The notes below the pieces were generated by a model. The model was not told the DNA's origin, searched no databases, and saw only the letters and a program-made list of their open reading frames with translations. A stretch of 37,686 bases of DNA from an uncultured Pelagibacteraceae bacterium (lineage in GTDB: Bacteria > Pseudomonadota > Alphaproteobacteria > Pelagibacterales > Pelagibacteraceae): positions 1 to 37,686 of the forward strand of contig CABYVA010000009.1 in the NCBI GenBank assembly GCA_902522325.1, written 5' to 3'. This document shows positions 5,455 to 33,482 of this stretch, piece by piece (positions within the stretch are counted from its first letter, which is position 1; each line of letters starts with the position of its first letter). The translations under genes and the position numbers were made by a program.

Positions 5455-5861
5455 TACTTTAAATCCTCTAAAATTTTCGGCACCCAAACCTTAGCATCTT
5501 GCGAAGTAACATGAAAATTAAATTTTTCAGGTCTCACAAACATTTGATTAGTATCTTCAAATCTTCCTTCCTTTATTGTATCTACCCAAACTATGTAATC
5601 AGCTGGAAATAATTTTCTTGCTTCAGGTGTTGGGCAAATAAAATCTGCAACAACATAATTACCTTCATTTTTTAATTTCAATGCTAATTCTGCCATGCGT
5701 TTTGCTTGTCTTTTTCTTCCGTCTGTAGAAAAATCCCAATCATTGGCGGCTCTCCTAACTTCATCTGCGTTAAGTCTTTTTGCATTAACCTTTGGAGCCA
5801 ACTCATTTGCAAGAGTAGTTTTACCTGCACCTGGCAGTCCCATAATTAAAATAATTTTCAT
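5454..5861 (-). CDS. APS-kinase-like P-loop kinase
   Basis: This 135-residue ATP-binding protein has a Walker A loop GLPGAGKT at residues 8-15, a NADEVRR segment with an acidic residue typical of small-molecule kinases, and a VVADFICPTPEARKLF strand-helix that resembles adenylylsulfate kinases. It is shorter than typical CysC (about 200 residues), and no ATP sulfurylase or sulfate-reduction gene is nearby, so true APS kinase activity is doubtful. It is coupled by TAATG both to the DddP-like gene upstream and to the nucleotidyltransferase downstream, which suggests that kinase and nucleotidyltransferase act as a pair. Confidence 0.75.
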   Translation of the reverse strand: MKIILIMGLPGAGKTTLANELAPKVNAKRLNADEVRRAANDWDFSTDGRKRQAKRMAELALKLKNEGNYVVADFICPTPEARKLFPADYIVWVDTIKEGRFEDTNQMFVRPEKFNFHVTSQDAKVWVPKILEDLK

Positions 5862-7096: not shown

Positions 7097-8271
7097 TATA
7101 CTATATTTGTTGCTACCCATTTATGAAAATGGTGGGTTGGGTTATCCATTTTTGGAGAAAAATTTCCCCCATTATATGCTGGAGAATTTCTTCCTATTTG
7201 CATTCTTTGAATAATATCAACATCCTCTTTTTGGATATTTTCCCATTGTTTATGATTTTGCTCTCTTAAATATTTAAATTTTTTAGAGTTAGCCGCTTCA
7301 TCTCCTACATAATATATTTCCATATGCTCGAGAGTATACTCGTGATTAATTGGTTCTAACCAATAAGCGTAATAATGGTCTTTATGTATTCCCAACATAA
7401 CATTTGGGAATAAGGCTACGTACTCTGCAATATTTCCCTTATCTCTAGGCCAATTTGGAAAAGATGGAAATTTTTCATTTCCCTTAAATCTTGGATTATA
7501 GACAACTGTTCCTTGGCCAGCAAAACGATTTGGCAAACCTTGAATGTGATAATGATCTTCAATTTTAGAATAAGAATTTAATCCAGGATGAACCCATGGC
7601 AAATGGTAACTTTCACAATAATTTTCAATAGCAAATTTCCAATTACATTTAGCATCTAATTTAAAATAACCATAATCATTTGCATGATAAATTAAATCTC
7701 TATCTTTGATTGGCCAAAATTGCTCCCATCTGTCGCTTAAAGGTTTTATATAATCTTCAAATGAAATCTCATTATTATTTATATTTATCATAATTAAATC
7801 TAACCAGATATATGATCTTATTTCTTTTAAATTACTTTTTGAATTTTCAAATTCCTGGCTTTGATGAATATCCATGCCACCAATGTGCGGTGTTGCTTTT
7901 AATTCTCCATCTAAATTATAAGACCAAGAATGATATGGACATCTAATTAAGTTTTTAATTTTTCCTGGCTCTTTGACTAATTTAACTCCTCTATGACTAC
8001 AAATGTTATGAAAAACTTTTATTTGATTTTTTTTATTTCTAACAATTAGAATCGGAATTCCAAGAAGATCGATTGGTTTTGCGTCGCCAATATTTGGCAA
8101 GGAACTCGTAACACCAATTACTATCCACTTATCCTCAAATAATTTTTTTCTTTCAATTAAAGTATATTCTCTACTTGTATAACATTCATTAGGAAGTCCA
8201 TGAGCTTCTGCAATAGGTTTGTTTACAATATCTAGTTTTTGTTTATCAATAATATTATAAATATCCGACAT
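7096..8271 (-). CDS. Rieske non-heme iron oxygenase, quaternary-amine type (CntA/GbcA-like alpha subunit)
   Basis: This 391-residue protein has a Rieske [2Fe-2S] site C91-x-H93 and C111-x2-H114, and a catalytic non-heme iron site H223 and H228 in ESYHLPWVHPG, with a later aspartate in EDVDIIQ. The residue bridging the two centres is a glutamate (E220), as reported for carnitine monooxygenase CntA, rather than the aspartate of aromatic-ring dioxygenases. Enzymes of this branch hydroxylate or demethylate choline, carnitine, glycine betaine or stachydrine. No dedicated reductase is visible in the window. It follows the methyltransferase gene by 3 bases and overlaps the DddP-like gene (TAATG). 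Confidence 0.85.
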   Translation of the reverse strand: MSDIYNIIDKQKLDIVNKPIAEAHGLPNECYTSREYTLIERKKLFEDKWIVIGVTSSLPNIGDAKPIDLLGIPILIVRNKKNQIKVFHNICSHRGVKLVKEPGKIKNLIRCPYHSWSYNLDGELKATPHIGGMDIHQSQEFENSKSNLKEIRSYIWLDLIMININNNEISFEDYIKPLSDRWEQFWPIKDRDLIYHANDYGYFKLDAKCNWKFAIENYCESYHLPWVHPGLNSYSKIEDHYHIQGLPNRFAGQGTVVYNPRFKGNEKFPSFPNWPRDKGNIAEYVALFPNVMLGIHKDHYYAYWLEPINHEYTLEHMEIYYVGDEAANSKKFKYLREQNHKQWENIQKEDVDIIQRMQIGRNSPAYNGGNFSPKMDNPTHHFHKWVATNIV

Positions 8272-9392: not shown

Positions 9393-9434
9393 TCAAATTA
9401 ATTTAACTTTATTACCTACGTCTTTTTGCGCCAT
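9393..9434 (-). pseudogene. remnant of methyltransferase 5' end (13 codons)
   Basis: An ATG at 9434 overlaps the DMGDH stop as TAATG and opens a frame MAQKDVGNKVKLI followed by TGA. The first ten codons equal the N-terminus of the methyltransferase at 8904. The most economical reading is that this was the original start of that gene, directly coupled to DMGDH, and that the insertion of the lipoprotein segment left this stub behind. Confidence 0.7.
9405..9434. repeat. 30-bp direct repeat, copy A (stub side)
   Basis: Partner of 8875-8904, with 28 of 30 bases identical. Together the two copies bracket the 500 bases that hold the lipoprotein gene. The length is greater than usual transposase target-site duplications, and no terminal inverted repeats were seen, so the mechanism is open. 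Confidence 0.9.
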
Positions 9435-11839
9435 TAGCTTCTCATTTTCTGTCCACTTGGATCATAAAGAGGATCTTTAATAATCGAACAATTAAACATG
9501 TCGCCATTAATCTCTACTTGAACTTTTTTATCAGAATTTAATTGTTTTGTATCTAAATATGAAAATGCAACACTTTTGTTAACAAAATGAGCAAACCCTC
9601 CAGATGTAACATAACCGATGCTTTTATCGCCTTTCATAACAGCTTCATTAAAAGTTACATCTATATCGTTAGTTTCTACAATAAGTGGTGTAATTTTATT
9701 TTTACTATTATCTTTTTTAGCTGAATCTTTTCCAATAAACTCTTTATCCCAATTAATAAATATATCTAATCCTGTTTCTTTTGCTGTAAAATCTGGTCTA
9801 TAATCAAGAGTCCATGCACCCCAATTTTTCTCTAATCTCATTGACATTAATGCTCTTGATCCAAAAGGTTTTATATTAAATTCTTTACCAGCCCGAGTTA
9901 TTTCTTCATATAATTTAATTAGAAAATGTGGAGCAACATAAATTTCATAACCTAATTCTCCAGTAAATGATATTCTATTAACTATAGCAGGTACACCTCC
10001 AACATACATTTTTCTTGAGTCTCTAAATTTAAATTTATTATTTGAGATATCTTCTCTAACAATTTTTTGAAGAAGATCTCTTGATTTAGGTCCTGCAATA
10101 CCTATTCCATGTAACTCATCAGATCGATTTTTATAACTCAAATTAAATTTACTCATGTGAGTTTCAAACCATCTTCTGTGCATTTCTTGTGCTGCTCCTG
10201 ATCCAAAAATCATAAATTCGTCTTCATCTATACATGCAACTGTTAAATCACCATAAAGTTTTCCTTTTTTTGTTAACATTGGTGTTAGTGAAATTCTTCC
10301 TGGTTTTGGTAATCTTCCTGCCATCACATAGTCTAAAAATTTTCTTGAATCTGGACCCTTAAACTCATGTTTTGAAAAATTTGCAACTTCGATTGCACCA
10401 ACATTTTCTCTTACATTAATTACTTCTTTTGAAACATAGTTATGTGATCTCGATCTTTTTATAGTAGGTTCTTCATGGGCATCATCTTTATTTTTTGCAA
10501 ACCACAAAACACTTTCTAAACCAAAGGAATCTCCCATTACTGCACCTTGGTTTACAAAACGATCGTATAATGCAGTAGTTTTTTGTTTTCTACCTTTTGG
10601 TAAAGTTTCATTTGGAAATGTCATTATGAATCTTCTTTCATAATTTTCTGACGATTTAATTGTTCCATATTGTGGAGACGCATAATCTCCAAACCTTGCT
10701 ACATCCATTGCCCAAACATCAATTGATGGTTCCCCATCGATTATCCATTCCGCTAAACATTTACCAACACCTCCGCCTTGGCAAAAACCGGCCATAACAC
10801 CTACTGCTACCCAATAATTTTTCATTCCTGGAACAGGACCTATTAATGGACTTCCGTCTGGTCCAAAAGTGAAAGGACCATTTACAATATTTTTAATTCC
10901 TGCTTTTTCTAAAGCTGGCATTCTCTCAAAACCAATTGCTAGCCTGTCCTGAATGTTATCTAATTTCGGTTCTAAAAGTTCATGACCAAAATTCATAGGA
11001 GTTCCTTCAATCTTCCAAGGGGTAGATTTTTGCTCATATGTACCTAACAACATTCCTTTTCCTTCTTGTCTGAAATAAATATTACCTTCAAAATCTGTTC
11101 CAATTGGTAGTCTTTGATCTCCTAAAGCTTCTATTTCTGGAATCGCTTCAGTAATTAAATAATGATGCTCCATTGGTTGAACTGGTAAATTTAATCCAGC
11201 TAATTTGCCAACTTCCCTTGCCCATAAACCTCCAGCATTAATAACTATTTCTGCATTAATATTTCCTTTGTCCGTTACAACACTCCAAGAACCATCTGTT
11301 TTCTGTTTAGTATCTTTAACAACAGTATGAGTGTAATATTTTCCTCCATAAACTTTAGCTGCTTTTGCAAAAGCATAAGTAACTCCTGAAGGATCGACCT
11401 CCCCATCTATTGGATCCCATAATGCTAAAAGATATCTAGAAGGATCAATTAGTGGATTTTTCTTTTTTACTTCTTCAAGTGAAATAAATTCCTGATCCAA
11501 ACCCATATATCTAGCTTTTGATCTTTCTCTTTTAAGATATTCTGCCCATACATCATTTGACGCTAAATAAAATCCTCCGCTTGGCTTAAACCCACAAGAA
11601 TGACCTGACTCTTTTTCTATTTCTTTATAAAGACCAATTGTATAGGCCATCATTCTGGAAATATTTGGATCAGATGAGATAACATGAACATTTCCAGCCG
11701 CATGCCAAGATGAACCTGAAGTTAGTTCGTTTCGTTCTAACAATACACAATCTTTTAAACCAAATTTTGAAAGATGATAAAGTATTGAGCAACCAACTAC
11801 ACCACCTCCAATAATTACTACCTTTGCATGGCTTTTCAT
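9434..11839 (-). CDS. dimethylglycine dehydrogenase-type FAD oxidoreductase with GcvT domain
   Basis: This 801-residue protein has the full two-part layout of DMGDH. The N-terminal DAO-type FAD domain has VVIIGGGVVG at residues 7-16 and TSGSSWHAAGN, where the His is the covalent FAD site in the family. The middle contains QPMEHHYLITE and GPFTFGPDGSPLIGPVPG. The C-terminal GcvT-like folate domain (about 430-801) includes KGKLYGDLTVACI, with the aspartate used in folate transfer, and FTGELGYEIYV. The enzyme would demethylate dimethylglycine to sarcosine, forming 5,10-methylene-THF. It lies five bases after BHMT, whose product is dimethylglycine, which strongly supports this role over sarcosine dehydrogenase. 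Confidence 0.85.
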   Translation of the reverse strand: MKSHAKVVIIGGGVVGCSILYHLSKFGLKDCVLLERNELTSGSSWHAAGNVHVISSDPNISRMMAYTIGLYKEIEKESGHSCGFKPSGGFYLASNDVWAEYLKRERSKARYMGLDQEFISLEEVKKKNPLIDPSRYLLALWDPIDGEVDPSGVTYAFAKAAKVYGGKYYTHTVVKDTKQKTDGSWSVVTDKGNINAEIVINAGGLWAREVGKLAGLNLPVQPMEHHYLITEAIPEIEALGDQRLPIGTDFEGNIYFRQEGKGMLLGTYEQKSTPWKIEGTPMNFGHELLEPKLDNIQDRLAIGFERMPALEKAGIKNIVNGPFTFGPDGSPLIGPVPGMKNYWVAVGVMAGFCQGGGVGKCLAEWIIDGEPSIDVWAMDVARFGDYASPQYGTIKSSENYERRFIMTFPNETLPKGRKQKTTALYDRFVNQGAVMGDSFGLESVLWFAKNKDDAHEEPTIKRSRSHNYVSKEVINVRENVGAIEVANFSKHEFKGPDSRKFLDYVMAGRLPKPGRISLTPMLTKKGKLYGDLTVACIDEDEFMIFGSGAAQEMHRRWFETHMSKFNLSYKNRSDELHGIGIAGPKSRDLLQKIVREDISNNKFKFRDSRKMYVGGVPAIVNRISFTGELGYEIYVAPHFLIKLYEEITRAGKEFNIKPFGSRALMSMRLEKNWGAWTLDYRPDFTAKETGLDIFINWDKEFIGKDSAKKDNSKNKITPLIVETNDIDVTFNEAVMKGDKSIGYVTSGGFAHFVNKSVAFSYLDTKQLNSDKKVQVEINGDMFNCSIIKDPLYDPSGQKMRS

Positions 11840-11844
11840 TTTTC

Positions 11845-12891
11845 TTAGTATTTTTTACTCATACTGGTGTTGAGTTCTAAGAACGATTCATCTTTTCCAT
11901 GTAACCAATGTCTACTTATGTCTGGATAATACTTATAAGAGATAGGTTTTCTACCTAAAGCTATAGACATTTCTCTAACATGATGAGGTTCTGCCCCACA
12001 ACAAATACCTATAAAATTAATTTTTTTATCAGCACATTGTTTTGCAAACTGAGCCATTTCAAATCTATTGCAATACAAATTATCCAGAGCAACGGGAAAA
12101 GCATTCCCACCTGGAATACAATCGCACTCATGATCAATTTGATTTAAAAACCCTGGTTGTTCTTCTGTAGTTCGATATGGAACAGGTAAAGCTGCAACGT
12201 GACATGAAACTTTTTCTCTTATCTTTGGTAAAAATTTCATTGTCATTTCAGGTCCTCTATAACAGTTAAGACCTACAACATCTGCTCCCAAGTCTTCCAT
12301 CATCTTACATGCGTCTTCTGGTGTTTGACCACAACGAGTAAGGTCTCCTTTGGGAATTGAAAAATTTGTAACAGCTATTAAACCTTCGTCTTTTATTGCT
12401 TTTAAAGCAATTTTCATTTCATCAACCCAATTTATAGTTTCAGCAATAACAAAATCTACTCCTGCTTCTTTTGCCCATCTTACCTGTTCTTCATACATTT
12501 TTTGGCATTCGATGTGTGATTTCTTATCATTTGGATTAAATATGTTTGTATTTGCAACATCACCACAAACTAACAAATCAAGATCTTTAAATTCATCTCT
12601 TGAATCTTTTGCAATCTGTAAGGCATTTTTTTGCAGAGGTTCCAATAATTCTTCCTTGCCAATTAAACGTAGTTTTTCTCTATGACCATAGTAGGTAAAA
12701 GCTTGGACAATATCAGACCCAGCTCTAATAAACTCTCTATGTAATTGTGACAATACTTCTGGATGTTCTAAAACAACTGTTGGAACAAATCCACCGGCTG
12801 ATAAATAACCTCTTCTTTCCATTGCAAAAAGATATCCTTCTGCGCATAGAACTGTTCCTTCATTAAGTCTTGTTAATAAATCTTTTTTCAT
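11845..12891 (-). CDS. bhmT: betaine-homocysteine S-methyltransferase
   Basis: This 348-residue member of the homocysteine S-methyltransferase family carries three zinc-binding cysteines: C210 in GLNCYRGP and C297-C298 in GICCGAEPHHVRE. The N-terminus (LCAEGYLFAMERRGYLSAGG) and FTYYGHREKL match the BHMT barrel rather than cobalamin-dependent MetH. It transfers a methyl from glycine betaine to homocysteine, giving methionine and dimethylglycine, the substrate of the next gene. The ATG at 12891 has no good Shine-Dalgarno, consistent with control by the structured leader upstream. Confidence 0.88.
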   Translation of the reverse strand: MKKDLLTRLNEGTVLCAEGYLFAMERRGYLSAGGFVPTVVLEHPEVLSQLHREFIRAGSDIVQAFTYYGHREKLRLIGKEELLEPLQKNALQIAKDSRDEFKDLDLLVCGDVANTNIFNPNDKKSHIECQKMYEEQVRWAKEAGVDFVIAETINWVDEMKIALKAIKDEGLIAVTNFSIPKGDLTRCGQTPEDACKMMEDLGADVVGLNCYRGPEMTMKFLPKIREKVSCHVAALPVPYRTTEEQPGFLNQIDHECDCIPGGNAFPVALDNLYCNRFEMAQFAKQCADKKINFIGICCGAEPHHVREMSIALGRKPISYKYYPDISRHWLHGKDESFLELNTSMSKKY

Positions 12892-13033: not shown

Positions 13034-14056
13034 ATGAAAAAAATAAGAAATATAATTTTTTCGGCTCTTGTTTTAGTCGGTTTCACTTCTTTTAGTGGAA
13101 TTGCTAATGCTAGTTGCGGAAAACTAGTTATCGCTGAACAAAACTGGGCTTCTGCCGAGTTGATGGCGAACGTAGATAAGATAATCCTAGAAAAAGGATA
13201 TGGTTGTGAGGTTGAACTTATACCTGGAGCAACTATGCCTACTTTTACTTCTATGGATGAAAAAGGTGAACCAGATATGAACCCTGAACAATGGGCTAAT
13301 GCTGTTTACACACCTTTAAAAAAAGCTGTATCAGAAAAAAGATTAATCATAGCTAACAAAGCACCTATTACTGGCCTTGGTGAAGGTTGGTGGATAACTC
13401 CAGGAACTGTTGAAAAAATTCCTGAAATCAAAGGCATGACAGCTATGGAAATTTTAGAACACCCTGAGTGGTTTCCTTCTAAAGAAGACCCTTCAAAAGG
13501 AGCTTTTGTTGGTTGTCCAGCTGGATGGGGATGTCAATTAGCTAATGCAAACCTTTTTAGAGCTTTTGAAATGGAAAAAAAAGGATGGGTATTAATTGAT
13601 CCAGGTTCTGCAGCAGGTTTAGATGGTACAATATCTAAAGCAGCTGACTCTGGAAATCCTTGGTTTGGTTATTACTGGAACCCAACTTCAATGGTTGGAA
13701 AATATGGTTTAATTCCTGTAGATTTTGGTGTGAAGTTTCACAGTAGAGACAACTGGGATAACTGTATAACTTTGGCTGAACAAGATTGTGCAGATCCTCA
13801 ACCGACTGCATGGACTAAGTCTGAAGTTAACTCAATTGTTACCGCAAACTTTGCTGAGACTGGTGGAAAAGCCGCTCTAAAATATGTTAAAAAGCGTACT
13901 TACCCAGGTGAAGTAATGAATGCAATGCTAGTTTATATGGCAGACAACCAAGCTAAAGGTTCAGATGCTGCTATTGAATTTTTAAGCAAGCATGAAAATG
14001 TTTGGGGCAAATGGGTATCAGGAGCAGCTAAGAAAAAAATTAAAGCTGGTCTTTAA
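13034..14056 (+). CDS. proX: OpuAC/ProX-type substrate-binding protein for betaine-like compounds
   Basis: This 340-residue periplasmic protein has a classic signal peptide with likely cleavage after ANA at residue 26. The mature protein has the OpuAC fold pattern: LVIAEQNWASAELMANVDKI at the N-terminus, GEGWWITPG, and NPWFGYYWNPTSMVGKY, rich in the tryptophans and tyrosines that form aromatic cages around quaternary ammonium groups. It would deliver glycine betaine or a similar methylated compound to the permease encoded next. A hairpin follows the stop codon and could make this gene more highly expressed than proW. No ATPase gene is in this operon. Confidence 0.85.
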   Translation: MKKIRNIIFSALVLVGFTSFSGIANASCGKLVIAEQNWASAELMANVDKIILEKGYGCEVELIPGATMPTFTSMDEKGEPDMNPEQWANAVYTPLKKAVSEKRLIIANKAPITGLGEGWWITPGTVEKIPEIKGMTAMEILEHPEWFPSKEDPSKGAFVGCPAGWGCQLANANLFRAFEMEKKGWVLIDPGSAAGLDGTISKAADSGNPWFGYYWNPTSMVGKYGLIPVDFGVKFHSRDNWDNCITLAEQDCADPQPTAWTKSEVNSIVTANFAETGGKAALKYVKKRTYPGEVMNAMLVYMADNQAKGSDAAIEFLSKHENVWGKWVSGAAKKKIKAGL

Positions 14057-14068
14057 GATATAATTTAT

Positions 14069-14100
14069 TTAACGAGCCTATAATTAAATAGGCTCGTTAA
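14069..14100 (+). terminator. hairpin between proX and proW (partial terminator or mRNA stabiliser)
   Basis: A perfect 13-bp inverted repeat (14069-14081 with 14088-14100, loop of six bases) contains the GC-rich core GAGCC/GGCTC and is followed by TTCTTT. It stands in the 60-base gap between the two genes. Such elements often trim expression of the permease relative to the binding protein. Confidence 0.7.
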
Positions 14101-14116
14101 TTCTTTAAGGAATTAA

Positions 14117-15001
14117 ATGGAATTTTTAACAAAATTTCCCGTAATGGAACGTACATCCCTAATGGAGTTAAGAAAGGGAATTGATCACGCTTTTAGAGAA
14201 TTTTCTAGAGCATATGGAGATGGTATAGAAGCCTTTTTTGATCCCTTATTATTTTTTTTAATCAGATTAGAAAAATTACTATTGGCTACACCTTGGCCAA
14301 TAATATTGTTAGCTCTTGGAGCATTAGCTTGGTTAGGTTCAAGAAGCTGGAAACTTGTAGTAGGAAGTATGGTTGCTTTTATGCTGATTGGATACTTTGG
14401 CATGTGGAAAGATTGTATGGCAACTGTAGCGATTATAACTGTATGCACAATTATGTGTATAACAGTAGGGATACCTGTTGGGGTACTTATGGCAAGATCT
14501 AATAGAGTTGAAAGGGCAATGCTTCCTGTTTTAGATATGATGCAAACTATTCCGAGTTTTGTTTATTTGATACCAATCTTAATGTTACTTGGGATAGGAA
14601 AAATTCCTGGTTTAATTGCTGTTTGTATATATGCAATACCACCAGTGATAAGACTAACAAATTTAGGGATAAGAGAAGTAGATAAGGAAACAATAGAAGC
14701 CAGTGAAGCTTTCGGTGCAACTAAATTACAAAAATTAAAAACTGTCCAAATACCTTTGGCTCTTCCAACTGTTTTTGCTGGGGTTAATCAAACAATTATG
14801 ATGGCTTTAGCAATGGTAGTTATAGCGTCCATGATTGGTGTTAAGGGTTTAGGAGTGCCTATTTTAAGAGCTATTTCAAATCAATATTTGGCTTTAGGAT
14901 TGTTTAATGGACTAGCAATTGTGGCCTTAGCAATTATTTTTGATAGAATAACTCAGGAATACGGACGAAGAATTCAAAAACACAGAGGGATTAAAAGGTA
15001 A
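14117..15001 (+). CDS. proW: ProW-type ABC permease
   Basis: This 294-residue inner-membrane protein has about six to seven membrane segments and the cytoplasmic EAA loop of binding-protein-dependent permeases (EASEAFGATKLQKLKTVQIP, about residues 195-214). An AAGGA site sits before the ATG. It forms the channel for the compound bound by the preceding ProX. It is a single-domain permease, unlike the fused double permease at 28212-30335. The ATPase partner is missing from the operon, so it may share the ProV-type ATPase at 30342 or one elsewhere. Confidence 0.85.
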   Translation: MEFLTKFPVMERTSLMELRKGIDHAFREFSRAYGDGIEAFFDPLLFFLIRLEKLLLATPWPIILLALGALAWLGSRSWKLVVGSMVAFMLIGYFGMWKDCMATVAIITVCTIMCITVGIPVGVLMARSNRVERAMLPVLDMMQTIPSFVYLIPILMLLGIGKIPGLIAVCIYAIPPVIRLTNLGIREVDKETIEASEAFGATKLQKLKTVQIPLALPTVFAGVNQTIMMALAMVVIASMIGVKGLGVPILRAISNQYLALGLFNGLAIVALAIIFDRITQEYGRRIQKHRGIKR

Positions 15002-15071
15002 GTCTTTTTGCATCACCCCAAAAGATCCGATTTTTATAGACACTTATTTTAAAATAAATAAATATCTCGGC

Positions 15072-15800
15072 ATGAATTTTTCAATGGAAATTAGTCCCAA
15101 AACTGAACTTTCAACCCTTCCTAATTTAAAAGATGTTTACATCACTTTTTTGCCAGGAGGTAACTACAAAGAAACAGCTGATAAAGCTGGTGAGTTAGTA
15201 AAAAAAGGGTTCAACCCAATCCCTCATTTTCCAGCAAGATCAATTACTAATAGTGCACAACTAAAAGAATATGTTTTAAGATGCAAAGATGCAGGAGTTA
15301 AACAAGTTTTGGTTATAGGGGGAAGCAGAGAGCCTGTTGGAGACTTTGAGAGCTCTATTCAACTTTTAGAGACTGGCTATTTTGAGGATATGAAGATAGG
15401 AATCGCTGGACATCCCGAGGGGAGTCCTGATATATCCGACTCAGTTTTAGAAAAAGCTATGCAAGATAAAAAGCCTTATGCAGACTATATAGTGACACAG
15501 TGGTTATTAAACCCTGAACCTATTATAGACTTTATTTCAAAGCAATCTGTGCCAGTCCACGTTGGAATTACAGGTCCATTAAGAATAACAAGTTTGATAA
15601 AATTTGCTAATATTGTTGGTGCTAAAAATTCCATTAACTTTATTAAATCTAATTTTAGTAAGGCTTTAGATTTAATAAAACCTAAAGACCCGAATGATTT
15701 AATTGAAAAGATAAAAAATCATACTGATCATTTTCATATATATACATTCGGTGGCTTAAAGGAAACTAACCAATGGTTAAAGGATAACAATTATGCCTAA
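15072..15800 (+). CDS. methylenetetrahydrofolate reductase (MetF)-like protein
   Basis: This 242-residue protein is shorter than typical MetF (about 290). The N-terminal SMEISPKTE corresponds to the E-x-x-PPKT region of MetF, where the glutamate acts in catalysis, followed by VYITFLPGG, then FPARSI and KQVLVIGGSREPVGDF, the flavin-site strands of the barrel. It would interconvert 5-methyl-THF and 5,10-methylene-THF. Its stop overlaps the next start by 8 bases, and the next product is a DmdA-like methyltransferase. A direction from 5-methyl-THF to 5,10-methylene-THF would therefore make sense. No other folate gene is in this operon. Confidence 0.75.
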   Translation: MNFSMEISPKTELSTLPNLKDVYITFLPGGNYKETADKAGELVKKGFNPIPHFPARSITNSAQLKEYVLRCKDAGVKQVLVIGGSREPVGDFESSIQLLETGYFEDMKIGIAGHPEGSPDISDSVLEKAMQDKKPYADYIVTQWLLNPEPIIDFISKQSVPVHVGITGPLRITSLIKFANIVGAKNSINFIKSNFSKALDLIKPKDPNDLIEKIKNHTDHFHIYTFGGLKETNQWLKDNNYA

Positions 15801-17226
15801 AAAAAAGAAAAAAAAATCAAAAAAAAATAAGAAAATAAAAAGTAAAAAAACTAAATCTCCATCTATGATAGTTGAAAAAGTTGACTATAGTAAATTAAAA
15901 CATGAAACTTCAGTTGATCAATCAGATAGACACGTTCCATATAATTTAAGACAAAGTGGACCAACAAAAGTTGAAATGTTAATTTCCACAAGAGTAAGAA
16001 AATCTCCTTATTGGCACCTGTCAATGAAGGCTGGTTGTTGGAGAGCTACTGTTTACAATAGAATTTACCATCCAAGAGGCTATGTAAAACCTGAAAAAGG
16101 TGGAGCAATGGTTGAGTATCAGGCTATTAAAAAACATGTAACTATGTGGAATGTTGCTGTTGAAAGACAAATTAGAGTTAAAGGTCCTGATGCTGAAAAA
16201 TTTACTGATTACGTAATTACAAGAGATGCTACAAAAATCTCTCCTATGAGAGCTAGATATGTAATTTTATGTAACTATAAAGGTGGAGTTTTAAATGATC
16301 CTATCCTTTTAAGAATATCTGAGGATGAATTTTGGTTTAGTTTATCTGACAGTGATATTGGACTTTATTTGCAAGGTGTAAACGCAGACAAAAGATTTAA
16401 TGTTGAAATAGATGAAATAGACTCTTGCCCTGTTCAAATTCAAGGTCCTAAATCAAAGGCACTAATGAAAGATTTAATTGGGGATCAAGTTGATTTAGAA
16501 AATATGCCTTATTATGGTTTAGCTGAAGCAAAAGTAGGAGGTAGAAGTTGTGTAATTTCTCAATCAGGTTTTTCTGGTGAAGCTGGATATGAAATATATT
16601 TAAGAAATGCAACTAAATATGCTGATGATATGTGGAATGCAGTTCTTAAGGCTGGAAAAAAACATAAACTTATGGTTATTGCTCCCGCTCACCACAGAAG
16701 AATTCAAGCTGGGATTCTATCTTGGGGTCAAGATTTAGATGCTGAACATAATCCATTTCAATGTAATTTGGGTTATCAAGTTTCATTATCTGGAAAAGGT
16801 GAATGGAATAAAACTGCTGATTATGTTGGAAAAGAAGCTTTAGAAAAAATGAAAGAAGAAATAAAAAATGGTAGCAAACCTTATAAACTTCAATTAGTTG
16901 GTTTGGTATTAGGTGGAAAACCTATTGAAGAATATGCTCCAGACTTTTGGTTAATTTCTAATGAAAGCGGGGGGAAACCAGTAGGCTTTATTACTTCTCC
17001 TTGGTATCACCCAGAAAAGAAAACAAATATAGCAATGGGATATGTTCCGTTTGATGGCACATTAAATCCAAATGGTTTTCCTAAAGGTAAAAAAGGAACT
17101 AAATTTAAAGTTCATTTACCAGCAAAATATTCTGAAAAACCAGGCAAACCTGTAGATGCAGTAGTAGTAGATATACCGTTTACTGAATCGTATCACGCAA
17201 ATACAAGGGAAGTTGTAAAAGGTTAA
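15793..17226 (+). CDS. DmdA-like GcvT-family demethylase/aminomethyltransferase with Lys-rich N-terminus
   Basis: This 477-residue protein has a GcvT fold. The segments VERQIRVKGPDAEKF, GGVLNDPILLRI and EFWFSLSDSDIGLY resemble the DMSP demethylase DmdA as recalled, including the N-D-P signature where ordinary GcvT and DMGDH proteins have D-D or G-D. It is about 100 residues longer than DmdA (about 370). About 24 N-terminal residues are almost only lysine (14 of the first 21). A start at 15865 (MIVEKVDYS) would remove this tail, but the 15793 ATG overlaps the MetF-like gene and looks coupled. It probably moves a methyl group from a sulfonium or quaternary amine to THF. The substrate is unknown; DMSP, betaine or another osmolyte are options. 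Confidence 0.75.
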   Translation: MPKKKKKKSKKNKKIKSKKTKSPSMIVEKVDYSKLKHETSVDQSDRHVPYNLRQSGPTKVEMLISTRVRKSPYWHLSMKAGCWRATVYNRIYHPRGYVKPEKGGAMVEYQAIKKHVTMWNVAVERQIRVKGPDAEKFTDYVITRDATKISPMRARYVILCNYKGGVLNDPILLRISEDEFWFSLSDSDIGLYLQGVNADKRFNVEIDEIDSCPVQIQGPKSKALMKDLIGDQVDLENMPYYGLAEAKVGGRSCVISQSGFSGEAGYEIYLRNATKYADDMWNAVLKAGKKHKLMVIAPAHHRRIQAGILSWGQDLDAEHNPFQCNLGYQVSLSGKGEWNKTADYVGKEALEKMKEEIKNGSKPYKLQLVGLVLGGKPIEEYAPDFWLISNESGGKPVGFITSPWYHPEKKTNIAMGYVPFDGTLNPNGFPKGKKGTKFKVHLPAKYSEKPGKPVDAVVVDIPFTESYHANTREVVKG

Positions 17227-17234: not shown

Positions 17235-17276
17235 AAAAAGGGGATTTTATTCTTAAATAATAATAGTCCCCTTTTT
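17235..17276 (+). terminator. intrinsic terminator after the proX-proW-metF-gcvT operon
   Basis: AAAAAGGGGA (17235-17244) pairs with TCCCCTTTTT (17267-17276). The AT-rich loop can pair further. The T run on the plus strand fits rho-independent termination 10 bases after the GcvT-like stop codon. Confidence 0.75.
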
Positions 17277-17307: not shown

Positions 17308-17853
17308 ATGTTCGGTGAATTTTTAAGTATTATTGTAAAATCATTAAAGTTAGACAAAAACCTATATAGAGATAATAAGAATTTCGGTGAGGCTGGAATA
17401 TATTTTGCTGGTTTAATAATGATATTAGATGGTATTGCTGGAGCAGTTGCCGCTAACACTATTATTAAGACTGCTATTGGAATTTCTGGATTAACAGCAA
17501 TTTTAACATGGTTTGTTTGGGCTATATCTATATTTGTAGTAGGAGTTAAATTATTTCCAGACAAAGAAACCAAAGTTCCTTTTAAAAAAGTATTAATAGC
17601 CGTAGGTTATGCTCATGCTCCTGGAATATTAAGATTCTTTGCCATTATCCCAGAATTAATGATTCTGTTAATTTTTTTAACTCAATTTTGGATCTTCGCT
17701 GGACTTATTATATCTACAAAAGAAGTTTTAAATTTAAAATCGAATTTTAAATCTTTTGGGGTAGTTTTTTTATGTTTTTTAATAATAGTTTTTTTATCAA
17801 TTTCTTTTGTGATGAGTCGAATGGAAGCTTTGCCTATTAGCTCAATAAGTTAG
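17308..17853 (+). CDS. Yip1-domain-like integral membrane protein
   Basis: This 181-residue protein has about five hydrophobic segments. The layout matches small bacterial Yip1-like proteins: a short cytoplasmic N-terminus, FGEAGIYFAGLIMILDGIAG, a paired helix, then KVPFKKVLIAVGYAHAPGILRF, the conserved central loop. No enzymatic residues are seen. It stands alone between a terminator and a convergent lipoprotein gene whose stop lies two bases away. The function is unknown. Confidence 0.65.
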   Translation: MFGEFLSIIVKSLKLDKNLYRDNKNFGEAGIYFAGLIMILDGIAGAVAANTIIKTAIGISGLTAILTWFVWAISIFVVGVKLFPDKETKVPFKKVLIAVGYAHAPGILRFFAIIPELMILLIFLTQFWIFAGLIISTKEVLNLKSNFKSFGVVFLCFLIIVFLSISFVMSRMEALPISSIS

Positions 17854-18354: not shown

Positions 18355-18942
18355 TTAAAGATTTTTATAACCGAATTCTAAAGATGCGTCAGTTATGGAG
18401 TGATACAAAGATTCGCCAAAACTTCTAAGTGAAAATAATCTTAAAGTATTTGGATCATCTTCAATCATGTCAATTGTAATTGCTATCCCGTTAAATATAG
18501 AGTTTACAGAATTATTTTTTTTAAAACTATTAAAATTAAAAGGACATCCTTTTTTCAAAACTTCTTTAATATCTTGTCCCTCTATTTGAATTATAGCTCG
18601 TGAATGAGATAGATCGGTTACAGCAAAATCTGTTTCTTTAAATGATTCTATAATTTTATTAAGTAAGTCTTTTTTAGTTGATACCAAAAGCCAATTTTTT
18701 GGACCATTCCATAAAATTCTCGTATCATTGTTGCTAACTACATTTTGAGGTTCGTTTTTTAAGTTTAAATTATCAATATTTATGTTTTCAAAAGAAACTC
18801 TAGAATTTTTATACTGAACTATTTGAACAATAAGCATATTTTTAATTTCTAAAATTTTTAATAAATTTTCTTCGTTTTTATTCTCATAATTTCCATAATG
18901 ACCTGTTTTGTGAATATGTTTTAAAGCAGATACTGATGTCAT
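18355..18942 (-). CDS. soxG: sarcosine oxidase gamma subunit
   Basis: This 195-residue protein with a GcvT-related fold completes the heterotetrameric sarcosine oxidase. Recognisable segments are RILWNGPKNWLLVST, FAVTDLSHSRAIIQIEG, VLKKGCPFNFNS and LRSFGESLYHSITDASLEFG, all typical of SoxG. Its ATG overlaps the soxA stop (ATGA), and the order B-D-A-G is the standard one. The gamma subunit is structural and binds no cofactor of its own in known complexes. Confidence 0.9.
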   Translation of the reverse strand: MTSVSALKHIHKTGHYGNYENKNEENLLKILEIKNMLIVQIVQYKNSRVSFENINIDNLNLKNEPQNVVSNNDTRILWNGPKNWLLVSTKKDLLNKIIESFKETDFAVTDLSHSRAIIQIEGQDIKEVLKKGCPFNFNSFKKNNSVNSIFNGIAITIDMIEDDPNTLRLFSLRSFGESLYHSITDASLEFGYKNL

Positions 18943-21935
18943 GATCTAACCCTTTCGCCTTTTGGATCAACATAATGAGATGATACAATTTCAACTGGTA
19001 TTGTTTTGTTTTTTAATGGAGATAATGCAAAAAGTTTTTGTCCGATCATATTTTTCCCATTTTTTATTATAGCGAGCGAAAATGGATTATCATATTCAAC
19101 GCTCCAGCACGATGCAGATACATGGCCGAGTTTAGGATTTGGAAGTTTAGCATTTGCGTCTTTAACTATATATGAGCCTTCAGGGATACTTGTTTTTTTA
19201 TCCAATGGAACAACACCAACCACTTTTTGTCTATCAGGTTCTATATAAGCTTTTTTACTTAAAGATCTTTTTCCAATAAAATCTTTCTTCTTACTAACTA
19301 ATCCTTCCAATGAGTTGTCGTAAGGAATTGTACGTCCATCTAATTCAGATCCTGCAACGTGTCCCATTTCAATTCTTAATGTCGATAAAGCTTCTGTTCC
19401 ATATGGTTGAATATTAAATTCTTTTCCAATTTCCATTATTTTTTCCCACATAAAGTTACCATTATCAGACTCAACATTTACCTCATAGGCAAGTTCACCA
19501 GAAAATGAAATCCTGAAAATTTTTGCATTAACTCCAAATAAATTGCCTTCCATATATCCCATAAATGGTAAACCTTGATTTGAGACATCTAAATCTGGAA
19601 ATAATTTCTGTAACACATTTCTTGATTTTGGCCCTGCTATTGCGGCACCAGCCCATTGTTCAGTAGATGAAACAACATTCACATTCAATTCTGGCCAAAC
19701 TAATTGCAAATAATATTCTAGATGTGACAAAACATTTGCAGCTTGAGCAGTCGTCGTTGTCATATGATAATGATTTTCTGAAATTCTAGTTGTTGTACCA
19801 TCATCCATTACAATTCCATCCTCTCTTAACATCACTCCATATCTAGCTTTGCCAATAGGTAATTTAAGCCATGCGTTTGTATATACTCGATTTAAAAATT
19901 CTGCTGAATCAGGTCCTTTAATATCAATTTTTCCTAAAGTAGTTACATCGCAGACTCCAACATTTTGTCTAACGTTTTTTGCTTCTCTTTTTGAAGCTTC
20001 GAATAAATTTTCGTTTCCTTGTTTATAATATCTTGGACGTAACCAAACACCTGCATCTACGAAAACAGCATTATTTTTTTCGTGCCAATAATGCATTGGT
20101 GATTTTCTAGTTGGTTTAGAATGTTTTCCAATTTCTCTGCCAACAATAGCTCCAATTGAAACTGGAGTATAAGGCGGTCTAAAAGTAGTGTGACCAACCT
20201 GAGGTACGAGTTTATTTTCCACATCCGAAACTAGTTGTAATCCATTAAGATTACTTGTCTTACCTTGATCTGTAGCCATTCCTAATGTTGTATATCTTTT
20301 AACATGTTCAATTGATCTATATCCCTCTCTTAAAGCTAGATGTATATCAGACACAGAAACATCATTTTGAAAATCTAAAAATCTTTTATAATTTTTACCT
20401 TCTGGCAAAGGTACACACCAAAATTTATCATGATTTGAAGATTTTTTTTCTACAACGGTAGGTACTGTAATTTTGTTGTCTTTATTTGTTATTTTCTTAG
20501 ATAATTCTTCTCCTTTTGAGAAAGAAGTTTTTAATGTTTCTTCTAGTGTAAAAACTCCGTTAGCTGATCCTAATGTTGTTTCATTTTGTTTTGATTGACT
20601 TGGAATAAATGCATCAATTTCTTCATTAAATTTAGTTTTATTACCTGATTGTGATGCCAAATGAATTGTTGGTGTCCAAAAACCTGAGACACAAATGCAA
20701 TCACATTTGATATTTTCAATCTTTTCTATACTTTTTTTATCATCCGATATTCTTGCAATATCTGCAGATTTGACTTTTTTATAGCCTTTTGCTGCAACAA
20801 CAACATAAGAAAATTTTATATTAATATTTAATTCTTTAGCTTCTTTTATAATTTCGGAATTAGTATCTTTTCTAGTGTCTAAAACTATGGGCTCTATCTT
20901 ATTTTTTTTAAACTCCAAAGCAGTTTCGTAACCACTGTCATTATTTGTAAATATAATTGGTTTTTTTCCAACTAAAACTCCATAAACTTTTAAATATTCT
21001 TTTGCTGCAGAGGAAAGCATAACACCTGGAGTGTCATTATTTCCAAAAACTAAAGGTCTCTCAATTGATCCAGATGAAATAACAACTTCTTTTGCACGTA
21101 TATACCACAGTCTTTGTTTCGGAATATATTTATCAGTTGTAGGCAAATGATCACTAACTCTCTCTGACATAACAAGCATATTATGATCGTAATAACCAAA
21201 AACTTGTGATCTATTTTTTACAATTACATTTGGCATCGATTTTAAATTAAATATCATTTCTTCTGACCACTCTTTACCACTTTTGTTTCCGATTGTTACC
21301 TCACTTGTTAAGAGACTTCCGCCGAACCTGGGTTTATCTTCAGCCAAAATTACTTTTGCTCCATTTTGTGCTGCAGCATAGGCGCTCGCTAAACCTGAAG
21401 GACCTGATCCTGTAATTAATAGATCGCAATATTCGTATTTATGTTCATATTTTTCTTTATCATGTTTTATTGAAGCTGCTCCAAAACCAGCCGCTTTTCT
21501 AATAATCGGCTCATAAACTTTATACCAAAAGCTTTTGGGCCACATAAAAGTTTTATAATAAAAACCTGCAGGAAAAAATTTGCCTAAAAAATTATTTATT
21601 GCACCAATATCAAAATCTACATTTGGCCAACAATTTACACTTTTTGCCTCTAAACCTTCAAATAACTCTTGTTCCGTTGCTCTTACATTAGGATCAATTT
21701 CATTGTTTCTAGTCATTTGTACTATCGCATAAGGTTCGTCTACACCTGCTCCAAAAAAACCTCTAGGTCTGTGATATTTAAAACTTCTACCAACTAAATG
21801 AACTCCATTTGCAATTAAAGCTGAAGCTAAAGTATCACCTTCATAACCAAAATACTTTTTACCATTAAACTTAAATGAAATTTTTTTATCTCTATTTATT
21901 AATCCACCTTTATCTAATCTAAAATTTTCTGGCAT
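18939..21935 (-). CDS. soxA: sarcosine oxidase alpha subunit
   Basis: This 998-residue protein has the full SoxA length. The N-terminal part (about 1-100) has a ferredoxin-like fold without cluster cysteines (NGKKYFGYEGDTLASALIAN, then YHRPRG). A nucleotide-binding domain begins with LLITGSGPSGLASAYAAAQNG near residue 175; in the family it binds NAD+. The C-terminal third (about 600-998) is a GcvT-like THF domain with GIVMDDGTTTRI and ISFSGELAYEVNV. The complex oxidises sarcosine to glycine and, with THF, yields 5,10-methylene-THF and hydrogen peroxide. It starts just after soxD. Confidence 0.93.
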   Translation of the reverse strand: MPENFRLDKGGLINRDKKISFKFNGKKYFGYEGDTLASALIANGVHLVGRSFKYHRPRGFFGAGVDEPYAIVQMTRNNEIDPNVRATEQELFEGLEAKSVNCWPNVDFDIGAINNFLGKFFPAGFYYKTFMWPKSFWYKVYEPIIRKAAGFGAASIKHDKEKYEHKYEYCDLLITGSGPSGLASAYAAAQNGAKVILAEDKPRFGGSLLTSEVTIGNKSGKEWSEEMIFNLKSMPNVIVKNRSQVFGYYDHNMLVMSERVSDHLPTTDKYIPKQRLWYIRAKEVVISSGSIERPLVFGNNDTPGVMLSSAAKEYLKVYGVLVGKKPIIFTNNDSGYETALEFKKNKIEPIVLDTRKDTNSEIIKEAKELNINIKFSYVVVAAKGYKKVKSADIARISDDKKSIEKIENIKCDCICVSGFWTPTIHLASQSGNKTKFNEEIDAFIPSQSKQNETTLGSANGVFTLEETLKTSFSKGEELSKKITNKDNKITVPTVVEKKSSNHDKFWCVPLPEGKNYKRFLDFQNDVSVSDIHLALREGYRSIEHVKRYTTLGMATDQGKTSNLNGLQLVSDVENKLVPQVGHTTFRPPYTPVSIGAIVGREIGKHSKPTRKSPMHYWHEKNNAVFVDAGVWLRPRYYKQGNENLFEASKREAKNVRQNVGVCDVTTLGKIDIKGPDSAEFLNRVYTNAWLKLPIGKARYGVMLREDGIVMDDGTTTRISENHYHMTTTTAQAANVLSHLEYYLQLVWPELNVNVVSSTEQWAGAAIAGPKSRNVLQKLFPDLDVSNQGLPFMGYMEGNLFGVNAKIFRISFSGELAYEVNVESDNGNFMWEKIMEIGKEFNIQPYGTEALSTLRIEMGHVAGSELDGRTIPYDNSLEGLVSKKKDFIGKRSLSKKAYIEPDRQKVVGVVPLDKKTSIPEGSYIVKDANAKLPNPKLGHVSASCWSVEYDNPFSLAIIKNGKNMIGQKLFALSPLKNKTIPVEIVSSHYVDPKGERVRS

Positions 21936-22204: not shown

Positions 22205-23461
22205 TTAAGAAATCCAAGTTTTGGTTCCAAGACCTTTTTCATCAATTAAATGTCCAGTACTAAACCTATTTAAACTATAACCTGCATTTAGTTCGTGTGG
22301 TCTGTCTTGAGCAATTGTATGAGCAAAAGTCCATCCAGATGCAGGAGTTGCTTTAAAACCACCATAACACCATCCACAGTTTAAATACAATCCATCAATA
22401 TGTGTCTTGTCAATTATGGGTGATCCATCCATAGACATATCCATAATTCCTCCCCATGTTCTAAGCATTTTTAATTTACTTAGAAACGGAAACATTGCTA
22501 TTCCTTCGGTCAATACATGTTGTAATGTTGGAAGATTTCCTCTTTGAGCATAACTGTTGTATCCATCAAGATCTCCTCCCATGACCATTTCACCTTTATC
22601 TGATTGACTACAATAAAAGTGTCCAGCACCAAATGTAACTACATTATCTAATATTGGTTTAATTGGTTCTGAAACACAGGCTTGTAAAAGGTGTGTTTCT
22701 ATCGGCAATGTCATGTTTAATTTTTCTGCTAAAATATTTGTACTTCCAGCGACACAAAGACCAATTTTTTTTGCTTTGATATCTCCTTTTGAAGTTCTTA
22801 TTCCTAAAATTTTTCCATTAGTAACGTCGAATCCTGTAACTTCACAGTTTTGGATAATATCTACTCCCATCGAGTCTGCTTGACGAGCATAGCCCCAAGC
22901 AACTGCATCATGTCTTGCAGTTCCTGCGCTAGGTTGCATCAATCCACCAAATATTGGAAATCTTACATTTTCGGAAAAATCCGCCATAGGTATAATTTTT
23001 TTAACTTCTTCTCTGTTTAAAAGAACTGCATCAATTCCGTTTAAACGCATTGAATTTCCCCTTCTAGAATAAGCATTCATTTGTGCATCGGAATGTGCAA
23101 GATTAATTATTCCTCTTGGAGAAAACATTACATTAAAATTTAAATCTTGACTCATATTTCTCCACAAATCCATACCAAATTCACTGAACAAACCATTTTC
23201 ATCGTGCATATAGTTTGATCTGATTATTGTAGTGTTCCTTCCAACGTTACCTCCTCCTATCCATCCTTTTTCGATAATAGCAACTTTTGTAATATTGTGT
23301 TCTTTTGCTAGATAGTATGCTGTAGCTAAACCATGACCTCCACCTCCTATAATTATAACGTCATATTCAGATTTGGGAGTCGGGTCTTTCCAAGCAACTT
23401 CCCAATCTTTATGACCTTTAAAAGCATTTTTGATAAGGCTGAAGACAGAATATTTTTGCAT
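22205..23461 (-). CDS. soxB: sarcosine oxidase beta subunit
   Basis: From the ATG at 23461 the protein has 418 residues. A TTG two codons upstream is in frame but less likely. The FAD-binding motif is DVIIIGGGGHGLATAYYLA, and GTARHDAVAWGYAR contains the histidine near residue 172 that carries covalent FMN in known enzymes. TWGGIMDMSMDGSPIIDKT and LNCGWCYGGFKATPASG are the family's C-terminal flavin contacts. It holds the sarcosine-oxidising site. It is the first gene of soxBDAG and is divergent from fhs, sharing a 138-base promoter region. Confidence 0.93.
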   Translation of the reverse strand: MQKYSVFSLIKNAFKGHKDWEVAWKDPTPKSEYDVIIIGGGGHGLATAYYLAKEHNITKVAIIEKGWIGGGNVGRNTTIIRSNYMHDENGLFSEFGMDLWRNMSQDLNFNVMFSPRGIINLAHSDAQMNAYSRRGNSMRLNGIDAVLLNREEVKKIIPMADFSENVRFPIFGGLMQPSAGTARHDAVAWGYARQADSMGVDIIQNCEVTGFDVTNGKILGIRTSKGDIKAKKIGLCVAGSTNILAEKLNMTLPIETHLLQACVSEPIKPILDNVVTFGAGHFYCSQSDKGEMVMGGDLDGYNSYAQRGNLPTLQHVLTEGIAMFPFLSKLKMLRTWGGIMDMSMDGSPIIDKTHIDGLYLNCGWCYGGFKATPASGWTFAHTIAQDRPHELNAGYSLNRFSTGHLIDEKGLGTKTWIS

Positions 23462-23599
23462 AATCAAATTTTATAGTAATTAGTATAAATAGTTCTTTAT
23501 TATTTTTATATATATTTTTTAGAACTTTAAAAAGTCCATAAAAAAAGATATTAATCCAGCTTCAAATGAGTTTGAATATATAAAATAAAGAAAGCAAAA

Positions 23600-30335: not shown

Positions 30336-30341
30336 AAAATT

Positions 30342-31379: not shown

Positions 31380-31426
31380 ATTTATATTTTTATATATTTA
31401 TACTATTATTATTAATAAATACTCCA

Positions 31427-32318: not shown

Positions 32319-32345
32319 ATTTTTAACAGTAAATTATACCAAAAT

Positions 32346-32380
32346 TAAAAAAAAATCCCCCCTAGTAAAACTAGGGGAGA
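32346..32380 (-). terminator. intrinsic terminator or attenuator after tmoX
   Basis: On the minus strand the stem CCCCTAG/CTAGGGG (32377-32371 with 32365-32359, five-base loop) with two further outer pairs is followed by about ten T residues (32355-32346). It lies 33 bases after the tmoX stop. It would make tmoX mRNA the major product, with some read-through to the transporter genes. Confidence 0.85.
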
Positions 32381-32412
32381 ATTTAGATTTTGTTATCGTT
32401 TAATAAAAGTGA

Positions 32413-33436: not shown

Positions 33437-33482
33437 CTAGAACATATTTATATATTATAGACATAAAAAAAAGGCTTTGTTT

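Follow-up and report, generated by a model that had tools for sequence, protein, structure and literature searches.

The window, i.e. the whole stretch of 37,686 nucleotides analysed here, carries four plus-strand open reading frames that a preliminary description had read as proX, proW, a short metF-like gene and a GcvT-like gene; all four were found in place and their domains were confirmed. The metF-like and GcvT-like frames overlap by 8 nt. The GcvT-like protein is referred to below as AMT (aminomethyltransferase). The features of the unit and its surroundings are:

9434 to 11839, minus strand: DMGDH-like FAD and GcvT-domain oxidoreductase (DAO, FAO_M, GCV_T and GCV_T_C domains)
11845 to 12891, minus strand: BHMT-like homocysteine methyltransferase, divergent neighbour (PF02574, 144 bits)
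13034 to 14056, plus strand: proX-like gene for a DmpX/OpuAC-type substrate-binding protein (OpuAC, 154.7 bits; best solved structure 7yle, 177 bits)
14069 to 14100, plus strand: strong hairpin in the proX/proW gap, a possible partial terminator or 3'-end stabiliser (13-bp stem, -18.8 kcal/mol, z -6.4)
14117 to 15001, plus strand: proW-like permease (BPD_transp_1; choline/betaine permease models, 254-268 bits)
15072 to 15800, plus strand: short MetF-like protein of the SYK-6 MTHFR type, 242 aa, predicted 5-methyl-THF oxidase (7xg9 match)
15793 to 17226, plus strand: AMT, DmdA-like GcvT-family protein, 477 aa, predicted glycine betaine:THF methyltransferase
17236 to 17275, plus strand: terminator-like hairpin 3' of AMT (AAAAGGGGA...TCCCCTTTT stem, -14.2 kcal/mol, z -2.5)
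18355 to 18942, minus strand: putative sarcosine oxidase gamma subunit (from ORF position and length; locus L013 has equal gene order)
18939 to 21935, minus strand: sarcosine oxidase alpha subunit, soxA (TIGR01372, 1306 bits, cutoff 1164)
22205 to 23467, minus strand: sarcosine oxidase beta subunit, soxB (TIGR01373, 678 bits, cutoff 529)
23600 to 25282, plus strand: formate-THF ligase (47% identical to an annotated haloarchaeal formate-THF ligase)
30342 to 31379, minus strand: ProV ATPase (TIGR01186, 332 bits, cutoff 326.6)

As had been described, the unit is closed by a terminator-like hairpin and lacks an ATPase gene; the sole ProV-type ATPase seen in the window (30342-31379) lies with a ProX and ProW of its own. 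No Rfam family, riboswitches included, reached its gathering score anywhere in the window. A carnitine-dehydrogenase-like gene is also present in the window.

The novelty of the GcvT-like protein had been made dependent on its place in a tree, and there AMT falls in a clade of its own (support 100/99), outside the canonical DmdA and GcvT clades, together with proteins from SAR11, other Proteobacteria and haloarchaeal megaplasmids. Dozens of residues are invariant from SAR11 through the haloarchaea. With DmdA (3tfh; PRK12486), the sister clade, AMT shares the single-domain GcvT fold, the THF-binding residues and the Asn-Asp-Pro signature already noted in the preliminary description; the Asn replaces the catalytic Asp of GcvT, as it does in DmdA, which points to the transfer of a methyl rather than an aminomethyl group. 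AMT nevertheless scores below the cut-offs of the DmdA model (NCBIfam PRK12486, 237.5 bits, cutoff 410) and of two GcvT models (156 and 128 bits, cut-offs 300 and 236), and it is 75-108 residues longer than DmdA. The excess of about 100 residues reported earlier comes to some 108 aa relative to P. ubique DmdA (369 aa) and is made up of extra segments at the N and C termini and an internal insert, all found throughout the family, plus a 24-aa Lys-rich start common to some SAR11 strains only. One Trp has been described as key to the interaction of DmdA with DMSP (PMC7487153). This residue, which we take to be W197 of 3tfh on the basis of our own mapping, corresponds to Phe in 28 of 29 AMTs; two DmdA-like paralogs have Tyr there, as does one DmdA from Roseobacter. 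Finally, no dmdBCD neighbours were seen beside AMT, which within SAR11 has one universal partner, MetF. On the strength of tree, residues and neighbours we reject plain DmdA as the identity of AMT, and the source genome also encodes a true DmdA-clade copy (L130 in the tree). An AlphaFold model of AMT, made from a SAR11-only alignment, had a mean pLDDT of 41 and was left unused.

The MetF-like protein has 7xg9 as its sole PDB match (124.6 bits, E 4.5e-35) and reaches only 25-27 bits against canonical MTHFR models; the same structure is the best match of the AMT-adjoining MetF proteins in SAR11, Alphaproteobacteria and haloarchaea. In a synteny analysis of 80 SAR11 loci the gene lies beside AMT in 77/77, and it is the only MTHFR-family gene found in the source genome. 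MTHFRs of the SYK-6 type are said to oxidise 5-methyl-THF (PMC13001107), and we infer that the MetF-like protein probably runs in this direction as well. SAR11 possesses a single gene of the MTHFR family, and B12-type MetH was found in none of 21 SAR11 genomes (0/21, domain search). The combination of a THF-dependent demethylase, an activity predicted in the case of AMT, with such an MTHFR recalls LigM/DesA and the SYK-6 MTHFR (7xg9), but the predicted AMT substrate is an aliphatic onium osmolyte whereas that of LigM/DesA is an aryl methyl ether. A LigM-type O-demethylase, which the protein length and the metF partner had made us guess, was ruled out by the PDB match and by the scores (NF047885, 33.8 bits, cutoff 580; NF047633, 47.9 bits, cutoff 800).

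Outside SAR11 the neighbours of AMT include the SYK-6-type MetF and formate-THF ligase, along with the oxidative enzymes dimethylglycine dehydrogenase/oxidase and sarcosine oxidase. A DMGDH-like gene lies at most ~15 kb from AMT in 13 of 20 non-SAR11 genomes, or 7 of 14 genera (0.37 expected, P ~2e-8), and one such linked DMGDH has rat DMGDH as its best match (651 bits). Among 385 alphaproteobacterial genomes, DMGDH is present in 19/19 that carry AMT as compared to 110/366 of the others (genus-level p 4e-7). Linkage to and co-occurrence with DMGDH, which served as our class test for a glycine betaine demethylase, were thus both found. AMT and canonical BHMT are each confined to DMGDH-positive genomes, and 1 non-SAR11 genome has both, against an expectation of 7 (p 7e-4 at the level of genomes and 0.006 at that of genera; not significant for families, p 0.16). 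GbcA exceeded its cut-off in only 1 of 20 AMT-positive genomes. On the haloarchaeal megaplasmids AMT (50-58%) is joined to MetF, to genes resembling dimethylglycine oxidase (598 bits against DMGO of A. globiformis), to glyA, ilvA and BCCT, and to genes for formate-THF ligase and the synthesis of folate; H. hispanica, too, has AMT on a plasmid.

What we observe is the gene content, the orthology, a clade apart from DmdA and GcvT, the conservation of the genes and the statistics of their linkage and co-occurrence, and from these we infer substrate, reaction and MetF direction: AMT is probably, though by no means surely, a B12-independent glycine betaine:THF methyltransferase whose product 5-methyl-THF is oxidised by MetF. 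AMT would bind glycine betaine and THF and move one methyl off the quaternary nitrogen of the former and onto N5 of the latter in a redox-neutral, B12-independent reaction of the DmdA type, yielding dimethylglycine and 5-methyl-THF. The adjoining SYK-6-type MetF would convert the latter to 5,10-methylene-THF, a source of CO2, reducing power and ATP through the action of FolD, formate-THF ligase and formate dehydrogenase; dimethylglycine would pass via sarcosine to glycine by means of DMGDH and sarcosine oxidase, both of which are encoded within 12 kb here, and in the source lineage the ProXW upstream would serve as a betaine/DMSP-type importer. The earlier proposal of methyl transfer to THF followed by oxidation by MetF, for which the clade and the constant MetF partner speak, is supported, as is its suggestion of a new substrate, i.e. 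one other than DMSP, given that AMT lies outside the DmdA clade. The step predicted for AMT, betaine to dimethylglycine, is the same as that of BHMT, GbcAB and MtgB, which have unrelated folds and use homocysteine, O2 (Rieske) and a corrinoid, respectively, whereas AMT would use THF directly as the acceptor. We know of no GcvT-fold enzyme that has been shown to move a methyl group directly from betaine to THF.

Few cell solutes are as common in the sea as glycine betaine, and no marine heterotroph is as abundant as SAR11. In the route currently accepted for betaine degradation by SAR11, BHMT takes the first step, which yields one methionine per betaine. Near-total conversion of methyl-labelled betaine to CO2 is not easily explained by that route, and HTCC1062 oxidised 14C-methyl-betaine to CO2, while the label that entered biomass was negligible (PMC3160333). 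Moreover, SAR11 bhmT is controlled by a SAM-V riboswitch (PMC5069961), which in our reading points to a biosynthetic BHMT. On balance we lean slightly towards the broader view that a family of B12-independent glycine betaine:THF methyltransferases with the GcvT fold, whose members range from SAR11 to the megaplasmids of haloarchaea, supplies the catabolic entry step that betaine oxidation has so far lacked and feeds a dedicated 5-methyl-THF oxidase, with SAR11 BHMT serving methionine synthesis only. If so, a core SAR11 gene pair gains a role as direct betaine-to-THF demethylase, the first step of betaine degradation becomes a gene that can be measured in metagenomes, and aerobic betaine demethylation has a third biochemical solution, which haloarchaea also possess, on plasmids with their own folate and C1 enzymes.

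The gene pair, put forward earlier as a candidate for an undescribed demethylation system, has in fact been described: metF and, next to it, an AMT of unknown substrate were reported close to dmdA in HTCC1062 as SAR11_1264/1265 (Sun et al. 2011, PMC3160333), and the AMT in the window is, as matched by description, the ortholog of SAR11_1265. What is added here to that account is the clade, the haloarchaeal and proteobacterial distribution and the DMGDH linkage. The same authors speculated that SAR11_1265 removes the second methyl group of DMSP (PMC3160333). That AMT is a second demethylase of DMSP, or of another sulfonium compound, working with a DmpX-like importer, is in our estimate quite improbable: DmdA is its nearest characterised relative (237.5 bits; 3tfh) and ProX retains 7/8 DmpX pocket residues, but AMT stands outside the DmdA clade in a genome that has a true DmdA-clade copy, its counterpart of the key Trp is nearly always Phe, its neighbours are DMGDH, Sox and MetF instead of dmdB/C/D, ProX is not conserved beside it, and SAR11_1264/1265 of HTCC1062 drop in stationary phase and do not respond to sulfur limitation. 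Another quaternary N-methyl compound (e.g. proline betaine, a carnitine product, beta-alanine betaine or homarine), demethylated by AMT to a product that enters the same C1 route, is unlikely, yet finds some backing in the carnitine-dehydrogenase-like gene, in a Rieske (GbcA-like) gene directly upstream in 18/43 proX-less SAR11 loci and also in the H. marismortui cluster, and in the 7/14 non-SAR11 genera in which DMGDH is present but not close to AMT; against it, the recurrent companions of AMT oxidise dimethylglycine and sarcosine, and AMT is strictly nested within DMGDH-positive genomes. A role as folate-handling protein or 5-methyl-THF-consuming methyltransferase, suggested by the non-catabolic roles discussed for GcvT-fold proteins such as YgfZ (PMC3160333), appears very improbable in view of the Asp-to-Asn exchange shared with DmdA, the invariant residues and the linkage to demethylation and C1-oxidation genes. 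Counting against betaine itself are those same 7/14 genera, the lack of significance of the AMT/BHMT exclusion at the family level, the BHMT that SAR11 also carries, the proximity to DmdA, and a ProX that looks more like a binder of DMSP than of betaine.

The preliminary description had further joined proX, proW, metF and AMT into one dedicated, conserved import-and-demethylate operon, which we now regard as unlikely. The order does recur, but in 27/70 SAR11 loci, the remaining 43/70 having no proX at MetF-AMT; the strong hairpin (14069-14100) splits proX from proW; and another SAR11 family has ProX-ProW together with its ATPase ProV at BHMT/DMGDH (L148, L149) and MetF-AMT at formate-THF ligase (L162). 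Of the two expected companions of AMT only MetF is conserved, a single conserved operon is rejected on synteny, and the core unit is MetF-AMT, to which ProX is weakly linked; ProXW is not integral to it. BHMT and DMGDH accompany 23/27 of the proX-bearing loci, the BHMT-like neighbour travelling with proXW. ProXW is a predicted betaine/DMSP-type importer with DMSP or betaine as candidate ligands. The best solved structure for ProX, 7yle, is presumably the DMSP-binding DmpX (PMC10030565), and 7/8 pocket residues are identical, the exception being Ala153, here Gly. Other OpuAC substrate-binding proteins of SAR11 share Tyr200 and the Trp cage, so that these residues are not decisive as a DMSP diagnostic. 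Compared to the DmpXWV DMSP importer (PMC10030565), ProX is a binding protein of the same type with a nearly equal pocket, but it is 32% identical to RnDmpX and its locus lacks the ATPase gene. The orphan ProXW probably borrows an ATPase, for which the ProV at 30342-31379 is a candidate shared motor; the ProV proteins beside ProXW orthologs (L148-L150) are 44-48% identical to it.

The four genes that the preliminary description had placed in one unit were recovered as open reading frames at matching coordinates in the window, which belongs to a SAR11 genome of 0.99 Mb in 51 contigs (G000), and their order is identical in the closest relative, a Pelagibacteraceae single-cell genome (locus L013).

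13034-14056, plus strand, proX
14117-15001, plus strand, proW
15072-15800, plus strand, metF-like gene, overlapping the next by 8 nt
15793-17226, plus strand, AMT, GcvT-like protein
17308-17853, plus strand, predicted membrane protein of 181 aa, without Pfam or NCBIfam match
28212-33375, ProV ATPase with its own ProX and ProW

As had been claimed, a terminator-like hairpin lies directly 3' of AMT and the proX-proW-metF-AMT unit includes no ATPase, ProV being accompanied by its own ProX and ProW. The hairpin between proX and proW, a perfect 13-bp structure at 14069-14100, is stronger than the terminator-like one and possibly sets a high SBP:permease ratio. The first 24 residues of AMT (15793-15864) are rich in Lys/Ser and limited to some SAR11 strains (e.g. 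loci L013, L058 and L079); most orthologs begin near Met25.

AMT scores below cutoff against the models for DmdA (237.5 bits; cutoff 410), GcvT (156; 300), LigM (34; 580) and DesA (48; 800). When 55 GcvT-domain proteins were placed in a maximum-likelihood tree, every AMT ortholog fell in a single clade (support 100/99), distant from GcvT, DMGDH, SoxA and Tdm and adjacent to the clade of the P. ubique DmdA structure 3tfh, L130 (the DmdA-clade copy of the window's own genome) and DmdA-like paralogs. The expectation that the protein stands outside the canonical GcvT and DmdA clades is thereby upheld and, judged from sequence, AMT is a family of its own. Three marks are conserved from SAR11 to haloarchaea: VDQSDRxVPxNLRQ(S/T)G at the N-terminus, YHPRG(Y/L)(V/I)xPEDGG, and PxAREx(A)K at the C-terminus. 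Like DmdA, AMT has Asn at the position of the GcvT catalytic Asp, but 28 of 29 AMTs carry Phe for DmdA Trp197. To that residue we map the Trp named key for DMSP interaction (W171 in the numbering of a published alignment; PMC7487153), because the folate residues E178 and Y180 of that alignment fall on E204 and Y206 of 3tfh (constant offset 26). The same 2020 study of DmdA evolution grouped many homologs as 'non-DmdA' without function. A second uncharacterised DmdA-like family (34-40% to AMT; L147 7977-12055, L175 3971-8057, L160 6384-7520) is followed on Phaeobacter plasmids by genes for OsmC, enoyl-CoA hydratase and acyl-CoA synthetase. On a Lichenihabitans plasmid (L174 2112-8203), a DmdA-like GcvT protein clusters with MetF, FolD, PurU, an FAD oxidoreductase, an aminotransferase and an amino-acid ABC transporter, which is likely another demethylation pathway.

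Conservation was counted in 80 SAR11 loci retrieved with AMT as query. The metF gene adjoins AMT in 77/77 loci on sufficiently long contigs and the small membrane protein follows in 65/69, whereas ProX lies upstream in only 27/70, 23 of these 27 loci also holding BHMT and DMGDH; in the other loci its place is often taken by a Rieske oxygenase or SAM methyltransferase gene. ProX orthologs of the second SAR11 family (46-48%) come with ProW and a ProV ATPase and adjoin BHMT-DMGDH in two of three loci read (L148, L149), and in one genome of that family (G025) MetF-AMT is found at a separate site beside formate-THF ligase (L162). In part of Pelagibacter, therefore, a ProXW(V) unit with BHMT-DMGDH and a MetF-AMT unit have come to lie side by side. 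Thus the proposed partnership of the GcvT protein with MetF stands, whereas the link to ProX is weak and the four genes are not a single conserved module.

Outside SAR11, 16 of the alphaproteobacterial genomes sampled carry AMT, as do a few other proteobacterial genomes and haloarchaeal megaplasmids. Its neighbours in Alphaproteobacteria are DMGDH and soxBDAG, joined in some cases by metF or formate-THF ligase. In 13/20 non-Pelagibacter genomes and 7/14 genera, AMT has a DMGDH-like gene no more than ~15 kb away (0.37 genera expected by chance, P ~2e-8); one such DMGDH matches the rat enzyme with 651 bits vs 357 for bacterial DMG oxidase. The haloarchaeal plasmids (Haloarcula, Halobellus, Haladaptatus, Salinigranum, Halorientalis, Halomicrococcus) hold MetF with AMT in six of seven regions read, two FAD oxidoreductases of ~850 aa (one matches the dimethylglycine oxidase of A. 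globiformis at 598 bits), a BCCT transporter, glyA, ilvA, formate-THF ligase, formate dehydrogenase and genes of folate synthesis. This set reads as a full path by which betaine would become pyruvate and CO2, with only a known betaine-to-dimethylglycine enzyme missing, although a Rieske gene is also present in the H. marismortui cluster. Anderson et al. 2011 noted the haloarchaeal DMG oxidases and BCCT genes, not AMT (PMC3102087). On haloarchaeal megaplasmids (L143, L144, L145) folate-synthesis and C1-oxidation genes are joined with those for betaine degradation, seemingly a self-contained C1 module.

Among 385 alphaproteobacterial genomes, 129 encode DMGDH (E 1e-150 or better), including 19/19 AMT-positive genomes (hypergeometric p 4e-10; genus level 4e-7) and 55/55 with canonical BHMT. 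AMT and canonical BHMT meet in one non-SAR11 genome vs seven expected, a deficit that is significant by genome (p 7e-4) and by genus (0.006) but not by family (0.16). All these p values are optimistic because the genomes are related, and the SAR11 BHMT-like gene is too distant from the canonical model to enter the counts. Of 20 AMT-positive genomes, GbcA exceeds its cut-off in one, with one near miss, and MTTB relatives occur in three. Nested in the DMGDH-positive set and rarely found with BHMT, AMT therefore has the distribution expected of a BHMT alternative upstream of the DMGDH step.

The AMT-adjacent MetF-like proteins of SAR11, an alphaproteobacterial locus (L114) and H. marismortui best match the MTHFR structure 7xg9 (125-149 bits), which we take to be that of Sphingobium SYK-6; their matches to canonical MTHFRs are weak or absent. 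SAR11 genomes show a single MTHFR-family gene each, the copy adjoining AMT. The SYK-6 enzyme is described as favouring the oxidation of 5-methyl-THF and as having co-evolved with LigM (PMC13001107). A B12-type methionine synthase domain is absent from 21/21 SAR11 genomes, and P. ubique is stated to have neither metH nor metE (PMC5069961); since SAR11 is without a methionine synthase consuming methyl-THF, an oxidative direction for its MetF is sensible.

Taken together, glycine betaine is the substrate that we predict for AMT with somewhat better than even confidence. AMT would convert glycine betaine and THF to dimethylglycine and 5-methyl-THF, MetF would oxidise the latter to 5,10-methylene-THF, which would yield CO2 by THF-linked oxidation, and DMGDH and sarcosine oxidase would take dimethylglycine to glycine. 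Such a route would account for the finding of Sun et al. that 14C-methyl-betaine went to CO2 with negligible biomass label (PMC3160333), a result that a first step by BHMT only fits less well, with the caveat that the medium contained methionine. The pair is not undescribed, as had been suggested: Sun et al. 2011 listed metF SAR11_1264 and the adjoining AMT SAR11_1265 of HTCC1062, which we take, by description, as orthologs of the window pair. They found SAR11_1265 closest to dmdA and near 1:1 with recA in metagenomes, and gave it no substrate, proposing the second DMSP methyl as perhaps its target (PMC3160333); both genes fall in stationary phase in a 2016 proteome study (PMC5069961). What is new is a specific, testable prediction of function for a pair previously without one.

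ProX is a DmpX-type SBP (match 7yle) that keeps 7/8 DMSP-pocket residues at 32% identity to RnDmpX; its Tyr200 is shared by other SAR11 SBPs and is not unique to DmpX. Its candidate ligand may be either DMSP or a betaine-type compound. A DmpX of HTCC7211, a possible ortholog of the window ProX, binds DMSP with a Kd of 100 nM (PMC10030565).

A TMAO demethylase Tdm (33477-35810, plus strand) exceeds its NCBIfam cut-off (1139.5 vs 1100 bits), so that several genes for osmolyte demethylation lie within the 37 kb of the window. The M24 protein encoded at 5861-7120 (minus strand) resembles the DMSP lyase DddP (344 bits, cutoff 600) and has genes for a Rieske oxygenase and a SAM methyltransferase next to it; it could be related to DddP but act on a different substrate. 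An L-carnitine-dehydrogenase-like gene (3293-4231, minus strand; 359 bits, cutoff 414) adjoins one for a HalD-like dioxygenase (4232-5083).
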